From assembly GCA_002753275.1 (NCBI GenBank), contig PEAA01000003.1, forward strand, positions 1 to 64,000: a DNA stretch of 64,000 nt. Direction: 5' to 3'. Source of the DNA: Zetaproteobacteria bacterium (GTDB lineage Bacteria; Pseudomonadota; Zetaproteobacteria; Mariprofundales; Mariprofundaceae). Below, piece by piece: positions 11,698-16,269 of this stretch. The notes under the pieces are model-generated. The model ran no database searches. It saw only the letters and a program-made list of their open reading frames with translations, and was not told where the DNA came from. Both the position numbers and the translations under genes were made by a program. Positions within the stretch are counted from its first letter, which is position 1, and every line of letters begins with the position of its first letter.

Positions 11698-14493
11698 ATG
11701 GATGATGGGATGATCTCGTTGGCCCAGATGCAATGGCTGGAACTTTATGGTGCCGATGCCAGTGGATGTGGTGATGTACCATTTGAGCAAGAGGATTCCG
11801 ATGGAGCCTTGCTCCATCGCCATGCAGAAATGCAACAACTTATGCGTCGACAGTTCAGGATGGGGAGAGAGTCTTGTCGCCATGATCAAAGTGAGATTGC
11901 ATCCTCTAATGATCATGTTATCGCCAATGTCGAGTATCCTTCGCGAGTTCTCTATCTGATCCATGCCTACCGTATGCATGGGCATAGGCATGCCGACCTT
12001 GATCCATTGAAATTAAGCAGTAATGATCGCTCGATCGTGGCCGATTTGGCACTGCGTTACTATGGGCTGACAGACGATGATTTGGGTCGTATTTTCCCGA
12101 CAGGGGATTTACATGCACCGCCGCAAATGCCATTGCGTGATATCTTGTCCATTTTACAAGAGACCTATTGTGGTCATATAGCCCCCGAATTGATGCATAT
12201 TTCAGATACAGCGCGTCGGGTTTGGTTGCAAGAAAAGTTGGAATCTGTGCGCTCCAAAGCAAATTTTTCTGCAGATAAAAAGAAGAAGATTTTAGAAAAA
12301 ATTATGAAGGCGGAAGAGTTTGAGCGTTTTTTGCATACCCGCTACGCTGGGCAAAAACGATTTTCCCTTGAGGGGGGAGAGAGCGTCATCCCAATGCTCG
12401 ATCACTTGATTGATGAAGCGGCTGAAAAGGGGGTCGAAGAGCTTATTTTTGGGATGGCTCATCGCGGTCGTTTGAATGTTCTTGCTAATATTATGGGCAA
12501 ACCTATCTCGGATATCTTTGCAGAGTTTGAGGGGATCTACTACTCCGATGCAAGTGAAGGTGCTGGTGATGTGAAATACCATTTGGGTTGTTCAACCGAT
12601 GTGGTGACCCGAACAGGAAATATTCATCTCTCATTGGCCTTTAATCCTTCGCATCTTGAGGCGATTACGCCAGTGATTCTTGGTAGTATTCGTGCGCGGC
12701 AGTGTCGTCGTAAAGATAAAGCGAGACGCAAGGTGATGGGGGTACTGCTGCATGGTGATGCCGCTTTCGCAGGGCAGGGAATTGTTGCCGAATCACTCAA
12801 TTTAAGTGAGCTGTCAGGTTACAAAACGGGTGGCACGATTCATGTGGTCATTAATAATCAGATCGGTTTTACCACCAATCCATACAATGCACGCTCCACA
12901 CTTTATTGCACCGATATTGCTAAAATGGTGCAAGCACCGATCTTGCATGTCAATGGTGATGATCCTGAAGCGTGTTGTTTGGCTATGGATCTGGCGATGG
13001 AGTATCGGATTCGTTTTCGCTCGGATGTGGTGATTGATCTCGTCTGTTATCGCCGTCATGGGCATAATGAGGCGGATGCCCCAGAAATTACTCAGCCGCT
13101 CATGTATCAAACAATTGCCCTCCATCCTACACTCTATCAGCTCTATCGTGATAACTTGCTGAAGCAAGGGGTTGTAACCGATGCGGAGGTGGATGAGGCC
13201 GTTGCACAGTATCGTCTATGTATGACGCGTATGAAAGAAGAACAGAGTGGAAAATCTCCATCGAGACCCAATAGCCTGCGTGGCCGCTGGCATGGCTTTA
13301 CCCATATCGGAGCAGAGGAGCCGACGACGACGGTTGCAGCGGATACTTTGCAGTCACTGGCAGAGCAGGTTTATACCTTTCCCGAGGGGTTCACACTCTC
13401 GCGTCAGGTGTCGAAAATTTTCATGCAGCGGATTGAGATGATGCGGGGAGATACGGAGATTGACTGGGGATGTGCGGAAGCGATGGCGTACGCTTCTTTG
13501 GTGCAGGAAGGGGGCTGGGTGCGCATTTCGGGGCAAGATAGTGGCCGAGGGACTTTTGCCCATCGTCATGCCATTGTTTATGATCAAAAGACGGGACGGG
13601 GGTTAATGCCCATTCGTAAGGTGGAAAATGGACCATTATCACACTTTATCGTCATTGATAGCATGCTTTCAGAAGCGGCAGTGATGGCTTTTGAATACGG
13701 TTATTCAATTGCAGAGCCAAGGGCCTTGGTTATTTGGGAAGCGCAGTTTGGTGATTTTGCCAACAATGCACAGGTGATTATCGATCAGTTTATTACTTCA
13801 GGAGAGTCGAAATGGCGTAGGATGTCGGGGCTCGTTTTGTGGCTGCCGCATGGTTATGAGGGGCAAGGGGGGGAGCACTCTTCAGCGCGATTGGAGCGTT
13901 TTTTACAGCTGGCCGCAGAAGATAATATTCAAGTTGTTAATCCAACCACGCCAGCGCAATTGTTCCATCTGCTGCGTCGGCAATATCTGATCAAAACCCG
14001 CAAGCCATTAATTCTCTTTTCACCTAAAAGTTTGTTACGAAAGCGGTTGACCTTCTCATCATTGGTTGATTTAACCTCGGGCGGTTTTCAGCCATTGCTT
14101 GCGGAAAGCTTGCCCGCTGTCGTTGTTGCCAATGTGCAGCGGGTATTGCTCTGTTCAGGGAAGGTCTATTATGATCTTTTTGAGGCGCGTGAAATATTGA
14201 AACGCTATGAAGTTGCGATTGTTCGCATTGAATCGCTCTACCCGTTTCCAAAAACGATGTTGATTCAAGAGATGGCGAAATATCATGCCACAACCAAGGT
14301 CTTATGGGTGCAAGAAGAGCCTGAGAATCAAGGAGCGTGGTATCAAATCAAGCACCATCTCAAGCGCTCGCTGCTGCCGACGCAGAAATTGTACCATATC
14401 AGTCGCGCTGCGCTTGCTGCCCCAGCATCGGGCTCATCAAAACGACATGCCATGGAGCAACAGTTGTTGTTAGATCGTGCACTGACTTTGTAA
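11698..14493 (+). CDS. sucA: 2-oxoglutarate dehydrogenase E1 component
   Basis: A 931-residue thiamine-diphosphate enzyme that decarboxylates 2-oxoglutarate and passes the succinyl group to the E2 lipoyl domain. The N-terminal LIHAYRMHGHRHADLDPL segment, the thiamine-diphosphate block GMAHRGRLNVLANIMGK, GDAAFAGQGIVAESLN, INNQIGFTTNP and GHNEADAP are intact, as is the C-terminal QEEPENQGAW. AAGGA precedes the ATG. Usually sucB follows sucA; here a terminator follows directly and no E2 or E3 gene is in the window, so the complex must be completed from elsewhere. Confidence 0.96.
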   Translation: MDDGMISLAQMQWLELYGADASGCGDVPFEQEDSDGALLHRHAEMQQLMRRQFRMGRESCRHDQSEIASSNDHVIANVEYPSRVLYLIHAYRMHGHRHADLDPLKLSSNDRSIVADLALRYYGLTDDDLGRIFPTGDLHAPPQMPLRDILSILQETYCGHIAPELMHISDTARRVWLQEKLESVRSKANFSADKKKKILEKIMKAEEFERFLHTRYAGQKRFSLEGGESVIPMLDHLIDEAAEKGVEELIFGMAHRGRLNVLANIMGKPISDIFAEFEGIYYSDASEGAGDVKYHLGCSTDVVTRTGNIHLSLAFNPSHLEAITPVILGSIRARQCRRKDKARRKVMGVLLHGDAAFAGQGIVAESLNLSELSGYKTGGTIHVVINNQIGFTTNPYNARSTLYCTDIAKMVQAPILHVNGDDPEACCLAMDLAMEYRIRFRSDVVIDLVCYRRHGHNEADAPEITQPLMYQTIALHPTLYQLYRDNLLKQGVVTDAEVDEAVAQYRLCMTRMKEEQSGKSPSRPNSLRGRWHGFTHIGAEEPTTTVAADTLQSLAEQVYTFPEGFTLSRQVSKIFMQRIEMMRGDTEIDWGCAEAMAYASLVQEGGWVRISGQDSGRGTFAHRHAIVYDQKTGRGLMPIRKVENGPLSHFIVIDSMLSEAAVMAFEYGYSIAEPRALVIWEAQFGDFANNAQVIIDQFITSGESKWRRMSGLVLWLPHGYEGQGGEHSSARLERFLQLAAEDNIQVVNPTTPAQLFHLLRRQYLIKTRKPLILFSPKSLLRKRLTFSSLVDLTSGGFQPLLAESLPAVVVANVQRVLLCSGKVYYDLFEAREILKRYEVAIVRIESLYPFPKTMLIQEMAKYHATTKVLWVQEEPENQGAWYQIKHHLKRSLLPTQKLYHISRAALAAPASGSSKRHAMEQQLLLDRALTL

Positions 14494-14502
14494 AGTCTCA
14501 AT

Positions 14503-14538
14503 AAAAAAACCGCACTATATTGGTATAGCGCGGTTTTT
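14503..14538. terminator. bidirectional intrinsic terminator between sucA and mamC
   Basis: An A-run, the stem ACCGCACTATA / TATAGCGCGGT (one mismatch) with a short loop, then TTTTT. It sits between convergent sucA and the mamC-like gene, and reads as a terminator on either strand. Confidence 0.85.
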
Positions 14539-14569: not shown

Positions 14570-14986
14570 TTATGCAGCAGAAGGTGTTGCAACATGCGGG
14601 TGTTCATCATGGGCATCAATCATTGCATCGGCAAGCCCTTCAACTGTTTCTAAGTGATTCTCTTCTTCAGGCTCTTCTTCAGTAGGGATCATATCCATGG
14701 CATAATCCCATGCATATTTTGCCCCTGCAGCCGCAGCCAAGGCTGTAATTACAGAGATCGTTAAACCACCACCAACCACGCCGACAGCAGCAGCGCTGAT
14801 GGCTGTCGCGATTCCAGCTCCAGCTGCTTCTTTACCTACATCTTTACCCGCTTCTTCAAGTGTAACCTTGCCATTACGGAAATCTTTATAATTTTTTGCA
14901 GCTGCCGCAGATCCACCAACAATCGCACCCAAGGCCCCCATGCCCGTTGTTGATGATGCTAAAAAAGGTCCAAGTTGAAATGCCAT
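14570..14986 (-). CDS. mamC: MamC/Mms13-like magnetosome membrane protein
   Basis: A 138-residue protein with two hydrophobic, Gly/Ala-rich helices (about 14-31 and 55-88) joined by a short charged loop. It matches MamC/Mms13 along its length: N-terminal LGPFLASSTTGMGALGA, GGSAAAAKN, the loop block TLEEAGKDVGKE, then GAGIATAISA, VVGGGLTISV and the diagnostic KYAWD. The loop of known MamC proteins binds magnetite through an acidic pair; E45 and D49 occupy the matching places. The C-terminal tail is very acidic (EEEPEEENH). MamC is an abundant magnetosome-membrane protein that affects crystal size. AAGGAG lies 6 bases before the ATG. It is downstream of aspC by 77 bases, with no other magnetosome gene in the window. 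Homology is seen; a magnetotactic host is inferred. Confidence 0.85.
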   Translation of the reverse strand: MAFQLGPFLASSTTGMGALGAIVGGSAAAAKNYKDFRNGKVTLEEAGKDVGKEAAGAGIATAISAAAVGVVGGGLTISVITALAAAAGAKYAWDYAMDMIPTEEEPEEENHLETVEGLADAMIDAHDEHPHVATPSAA

Positions 14987-15063
14987 GTTTTGCTCCTTAA
15001 CGCGAAATTGATCGAGACTTTAACAATCTGAGAATAAAATTAAACTGCTAATTTAATGAGGTT

Positions 15064-16269
15064 TTAATCGATAAGTGATCGGACAGCAAGATCAATGCGA
15101 TCCATCGCATCTTCGATGGTTTCTTGCGCAACAGCATAGGAGATTCGTAAGTGACCAGGTGCGCCAAACTCAGTGCCAGGAACCAAGGCGACGCCCGCCT
15201 CTTCAAGCAACCATGCACAGACATCAATATCACTGTTTAGCGAGAGACCGTTGCTGCATTTTTTACCAAGCCATGCGGCGATCGATGGAAAGAGGTAGAA
15301 GGCACCATCAGGCACCATGCAGTTGACACCTTTAATTTGATTGAGGCGATGAACCAACCAAGTGCGCCGTGTTTCGTAAGTGTGAACCATTGCATCAAGG
15401 GCATCCGTAGGGCCTGTGAGTGCGGCAAGTGCTGCTTTTTGTGAGATAGAACATGGGTTTGATGTGCTTTGACTTTGCGCTTTGGCCATTGATTGAATGA
15501 GATGGCGCGGTCCCGCACAATAACCGATGCGCCAGCCTGTCATGCAATAGGCTTTTGAAACACCATTGAGGGTGATGGTTCGCTCTTTTAGGTCAGGGTT
15601 TACTTGTGCAAAGGTGAAAAATGCTTTGCCATCAAAGAGAATTTTCTCATACATATCATCGGTGGCGATGGCTACATTAGGATAATCGCGTAACACTTCG
15701 CCAAGTGCGCGTAGCTCATGCTCGCTGTAAGCCATTCCGGTTGGGTTCGATGGCGAGTTGATAATGACCAAGCGTGTGCGCTCGGTCAGGGAATTTTTTA
15801 ATTGTGCAGCGGAGAGTTTGAATTGATCTTCGGCCGAGGTTGGCACAATCACAGGAACCCCTTCAACCAGTTGCACCATGTCTGGGTATGATACCCAGTA
15901 AGGCGCGGGGATGATCACTTCATCGCCTGTATTGATGATGGCAACCAAAAGGTTGTAAATACACTGTTTGCCACCACTTGATACCAGAATATCATTGATA
16001 TCATAATCGAGATGGTGATCGGTTTTGAATTTATTAACAATCGCTTGCCGAAGCTCAGGGATGCCATTCACAGCCGTGTAGCGCGTAAAACCATCTTCAA
16101 TAGCAGTGATTGCTGCTTTTGCTGCATGCACGGGGGTATCGAAGTCGGGTTCACCCACAGAGAGGGAAATGATATCGCGCCCTTGTGCTCTCAATTCAGC
16201 AGCTTTCGCCGTGATGGTTAAGGTTGCTGAGGGTTTAATTTGCTGGATTCGTTTTGATAGGGCGATCAT
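15064..16269 (-). CDS. aspC: class I aspartate/aromatic aminotransferase
   Basis: A 401-residue PLP enzyme of the fold-type I aminotransferase class, subgroup I-gamma (AspC/AAT of thermophile and alphaproteobacterial type). Seen: the LSVGEPDFDTP substrate-binding start, NSPSNPTG, DDMYEKI, and the PLP lysine in NGVSKAYCMTGWR (K239). It exchanges amino groups between aspartate and 2-oxoglutarate; some relatives also accept prephenate. It begins 15 bases after bamD, in the rne-rluD-pgeF-bamD-aspC series. Exact substrate range is not readable. Confidence 0.93.
   Translation of the reverse strand: MIALSKRIQQIKPSATLTITAKAAELRAQGRDIISLSVGEPDFDTPVHAAKAAITAIEDGFTRYTAVNGIPELRQAIVNKFKTDHHLDYDINDILVSSGGKQCIYNLLVAIINTGDEVIIPAPYWVSYPDMVQLVEGVPVIVPTSAEDQFKLSAAQLKNSLTERTRLVIINSPSNPTGMAYSEHELRALGEVLRDYPNVAIATDDMYEKILFDGKAFFTFAQVNPDLKERTITLNGVSKAYCMTGWRIGYCAGPRHLIQSMAKAQSQSTSNPCSISQKAALAALTGPTDALDAMVHTYETRRTWLVHRLNQIKGVNCMVPDGAFYLFPSIAAWLGKKCSNGLSLNSDIDVCAWLLEEAGVALVPGTEFGAPGHLRISYAVAQETIEDAMDRIDLAVRSLID

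Follow-up and report, generated by a model that had tools for sequence, protein, structure and literature searches.

Why should a gene for a magnetosome protein stand alone among housekeeping genes? The question is raised by one open reading frame in the stretch of DNA analyzed here (the window, 64 kb), which forms the first part of a 106-kb contig, C26. The contig belongs to a 1.86-Mb draft genome (55 contigs, 93.9% complete, contamination estimate 0.08%) from the Mariprofundaceae, Zetaproteobacteria (the NCBI lineage names the class Mariprofundia), the only representative of its genus in a search of 74 genomes of the family. The initial annotation had called the product MamC/Mms13-like and had offered three explanations for its position: a relocated magnetosome gene, an extra paralogue, or an ancestral MamC relative with another role.

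We searched the product against the NCBIfam model NF038051 (MamC, equivalog; cut-off 100 bits), the check proposed with that annotation. The match reached 118.3 bits (E=1.3e-34) and covered profile positions 1-96 of 97, and the same profile search gave zero matches in 14 control genomes. An unrelated Gly/Ala-rich or holin-like family, the outcome that would have spoken against MamC, was ruled out: the Pfam search returned no real match, the best being DUF2076 at 13 bits, and the NCBIfam family was MamC. No relative was found among solved structures by sequence, nor by fold at E-values up to 10. The hydrophobic stretches of the two claimed membrane helices, the charged loop and the KYAWD motif were all present. 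Judged by its sequence, the open reading frame is a genuine mamC, which adds a member to a known family and is unusual in where it lies. It was also the only MamC match in the draft genome, which leaves the extra paralogue unsupported, although a second copy may lie in an assembly gap. The features of the locus are collected in Table 1.

Table 1. Features at and around mamC (window coordinates).
Feature	Position	Strand	Basis or detail
mamC	14570..14986	minus	138 aa; ATG at 14986, stop codon ends 14570; NCBIfam equivalog above cut-off
Ribosome-binding site of mamC (AAGGAG, strong)	14993..14998	minus	sequence
aspC, aminotransferase, same strand as mamC and upstream of it (gap 77 bp)	15064..16269	minus	ORF; matches in 61/74 family genomes
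sucA-like 2-oxoglutarate dehydrogenase E1, converging on mamC	11698..14493	plus	ORF; name from sequence
Hairpin flanked by A and T runs in the mamC-sucA gap, probable two-way terminator	14503..14538		by eye; absent from scan output
Magnetite-interacting loop, codons 36-56 (E45, D49, G51, E53, G56)	14819..14881	minus	register against the tested MamC peptide
Acidic C-terminal tail, codons 101-138	14573..14686	minus	12 Asp/Glu, no Lys/Arg, 38 residues

Within the contig, mamC is the last gene of a housekeeping string behind aspC, and a promoter scan of the gap between the two genes gave nothing above chance. The earlier statement that the 64 kb hold no other mam or mms gene is true, and in the tests made it also held for the remainder of the 106-kb contig. 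Neither mamD, mamF nor any other magnetosome neighbor accompanies mamC on the contig, such linkage being common, not universal, in the family. Relatives have bamD and then a small lipoprotein gene where aspC would stand. A simple insertion at aspC, to be recognized from an empty site, was unreadable, since the neighbors of aspC differ in each relative looked at.

The rest of the genome largely answers the question. Queries with MamK and MamE led to contig C2 of the same genome, where a near-complete magnetosome cluster occupies about 7.1-28.1 kb (~21 kb) on one strand, encoding MamS, B, R-like, Q, X-like magnetochrome, Z, FeoB, T, A, P, O, N, M, K, an acidic protein of (EA)n type, E, I, H, F and a MamD/MamG-like protein. 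MamK (427 bits, cut-off 400), MamM (426, 350), MamQ (257.5, 250), MamP (300.2, 300), MamZ (712, 650) and MamH (616, 300) exceeded their curated cut-offs; MamE, MamS and a truncated MamO (275 of 800 bits) fell below theirs. All of mamA, B, M, K, E, I, O, P and Q, the core set that the initial annotation had named for a genome search, were thus matched on C2, MamO being short, and mamC was not found in the cluster. Going by genes alone, the genome carries a magnetosome gene set. The description of mamC as stand-alone therefore holds for its location and not for the genome, and with the cluster on another contig the puzzle of the isolated gene mostly dissolves. The long (EA)n-repeat protein (C2:22608-23030) is encoded between mamK and mamE, where MamJ is usually found. 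In addition, a second MamK-like gene (C40:21635-22642; 375 bits, cut-off 400) stands apart from other magnetosome genes, accompanied by a small membrane protein and near rnhB and pheT.

We consider it highly probable (about 0.87) that the window gene is the sole mamC of a genome with a magnetosome set, separated from the C2 cluster and now placed at the 3' end of a housekeeping string. Among the three original explanations the relocated magnetosome gene fits best, and the other two are unsupported.

Next to this location, codon usage suggests how the gene is used. Synonymous codons were scored against 23 ribosomal-protein genes of the same genome across 150 ORFs from three contigs, with correction for amino-acid content. 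In this ranking, which is approximate as the background includes some spurious ORFs, mamD came 1st, mamF 2nd and mamC 8th (z=3.6), ranks 3-7 belonging to the ATP-synthase region of C2; the neighbors of mamC ranked ordinarily (aspC 105, sucA 72, of 150). The bias shared with mamD and mamF despite the unlinking implies that mamC would still be made in quantity within that group, and the window MamC most likely continues to act as an abundant protein of the magnetosome membrane. In Magnetospirillum, mamC shares one operon with mamD, mamF and mamG; losing this operon leaves crystals at about 75% of their size (PMC3905215). Deletion of mamC alone in M. gryphiswaldense caused no crystal defect (PMC3905215), so the contribution of the window MamC may be small.

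A MamC relative with a task unconnected to magnetosomes, such as general handling of iron or membranes, and kept under housekeeping control, would suit the neighborhood of the gene and the existence of divergent, unlinked MamC-like genes in Gammaproteobacteria. However, the genome holds a cluster and no second mamC, it retains the loop residues and codon bias typical of the magnetosome group, and no MamC match came up in 36 further family genomes and 4 relatives from the order, which makes such a role very unlikely. The same C2 gene set and the bias shared with mamD and mamF likewise tell against the ancestral relative proposed at first.

To place the locus among others, we used a profile scan of genome contigs that yielded 33 MamC loci, all genomes compared being drafts. 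Most other loci have recognized magnetosome neighbors; a Magnetococcales locus (L069) has none recognized within 20 kb. The nearest MamC, 70% identical with the tail motif included, is that of Mariprofundus sp. AMOR20 (JAUZRH010000020.1). One of the family genomes and the AMOR20 genome give an identical aspC match (C5:2128-3321, 609.6 bits) and are one genome, which places the window in the family of Mariprofundus. The AMOR20 mamC occupies bases 7-396 at the edge of a 27-kb contig carrying most of the cluster, with one flank visible, 1.4 kb from an X-like gene, mamZ, feoB, mamT, mamA and mamP; mamS-B-R-Q lie on another contig, and no mamC was found at aspC in AMOR20. AMOR20 and the window genome have the same cluster genes and a second mamK, but in AMOR20 both mamC and the second mamK, the counterpart of the C40 gene, are on the cluster contig. 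The two Zetaproteobacteria thus have a common gene set that is split differently. A nucleotidyltransferase-HEPN pair of toxin-antitoxin type (L108:727-1544) separates the AMOR20 mamC from the cluster and is a possible trace of rearrangement. The linked copy in this nearest relative and the usual linked state elsewhere suggest that the window mamC would have moved out of the cluster.

Unlinked copies occur in other phyla and classes as well. In two related Gammaproteobacteria (nzgw581 and X1_MaxBin.010; loci L059, L060, L083 and L134) mamC (63%) is unlinked and close to iron-sulfur-cluster (isc-type) genes, with the cluster on another contig. Both also have a divergent MamC-like paralogue (51-76 bits) on a third contig. 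The Bdellovibrionales MAG Kiruna_bin-06382 (L062, L152) has an unlinked MamC above the cut-off and, on its contig C50, a weaker cluster-like run of MamA-, MamQ- and MamE-like genes with two CDF genes; neither MamK nor MamH was found above its cut-off in this genome. The idea that this Bdellovibrionota genome carries mamC without magnetosome genes is weakened by the C50 run.

These loci bear on two further readings. The join of aspC, mamC and sucA might be false, an artefact of assembly or binning, with mamC truly in or beside the C2 cluster; the draft is in 55 contigs, and the AMOR20 mamC is on a cluster contig. We regard this as highly improbable, given that mamC sits 14.5 kb into its contig (106 kb), that its ribosome-binding site is intact, its distance from aspC clean and the gap to sucA occupied by a probable two-way terminator, that the contamination estimate is 0.08%, and that mamC is also unlinked in the two Gammaproteobacteria and the Bdellovibrionota genome. 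Less improbable, though still improbable, is that mamC reached this locus by a horizontal transfer of its own, later than the cluster or independently of it. Outside the class, the unlinked Gammaproteobacterial copies come closest (63%), and the third-position G+C of mamC is low (0.29), but the nearest copy of all is in the same family (70%, tail motif shared), the overall G+C matches the genome, and the codons match those of its highly expressed genes. Foreign composition was accordingly rejected, the overall value being ordinary and the third-position value better explained by high-expression codons. In the tree, the window MamC groups with AMOR20 and the Gammaproteobacteria with weak support, which favors neither side.

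We then asked what the relocated gene would encode. The residues of the tested magnetite-interacting MamC peptide (Glu3, Asp14, Gly16, Glu18, Thr19 and Gly21; PMC6206293) fit a single register on the MamC of Paramagnetospirillum caucaseum (L076), in which the peptide Asp14 falls on D49 of the window MamC. This Asp14 corresponds to Asp70 in full-length AMB-1 MamC, with Glu66 four residues earlier (PMC6584501), and E45/D49 of the window MamC align with Glu66/Asp70. PMC6206293 gives the acidic pair as Asp66 and Glu70; our register fits Glu66 and Asp70 instead. Across 25 aligned MamC proteins, D49 is nearly invariant, E53 is invariant and position 45 is variable (D, H or G elsewhere), indicating that the acidic pair is not strictly required family-wide. 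The pair singled out by the initial annotation is therefore present, although its first position is not invariant in the family. An AlphaFold2 model, also proposed there for the loop, had helices at residues 13-37, 43-69 and 74-99 (mean pLDDT 75.5, about 90 over residues 21-60, pTM only 0.47); E45 and D49 lie near the beginning of the second helix, the loop is thus helical from residue 43, and hydropathy peaks support hydrophobic helices. The long acidic tail, which had been listed as a difference, is real, but acidic tails are common among MamC proteins. Its motif HLxTVxGLADAxID is common to the window and AMOR20 proteins, which makes the tail a trait of the lineage and not a peculiarity of one gene.

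By analogy with studied MamC proteins, the product would insert in the magnetosome membrane through its hydrophobic helices, with the loop residues E45, D49 and E53 facing the lumen. There the loop may weakly bind iron or the magnetite surface, and the protein would adjust crystal size and shape.

The locus bears on the question of whether magnetosome genes can work without being linked. It is a tentative and rather unlikely generalization that mamC has repeatedly left the cluster, in Zetaproteobacteria, Gammaproteobacteria and Bdellovibrionota, and come under housekeeping expression; if true, a main organelle surface protein would be made independently of the rest of the cluster. In practice, searches confined to clusters can miss magnetosome genes, as mamC may sit elsewhere in the genome. 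The window MamC adds a Zetaproteobacterial member to a family whose known members are mostly from Alphaproteobacteria and Magnetococcia, and offers a natural variant of loop and tail for crystal assays.

Compared with known systems, the protein shares with MamC/Mms13 of Magnetospirillum, Magnetococcus and others its length, helices, E/D-pair loop, KYAWD motif and acidic tail, at 41-67% identity in the alignment. It departs from the NF038051 family in that its gene is apart from mamD and mamF and in a tail sequence so far seen only in two Zetaproteobacteria. Lin et al. 2018 (PMC5955933) described PCbin4, a draft from the Zetaproteobacteria whose magnetite-type cluster is nearly complete; it may be the same genome, and the main text of that paper names mamC 0 times. 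A parallel in gene arrangement is the magnetotaxis islet of M. magneticum AMB-1 (PMC2818848), where, as here, magnetosome genes including a second mamK lie outside the main island. However, that islet is one 22-kb region with seven extra copies, whereas the mamC of the window genome is its only one and stands by itself.
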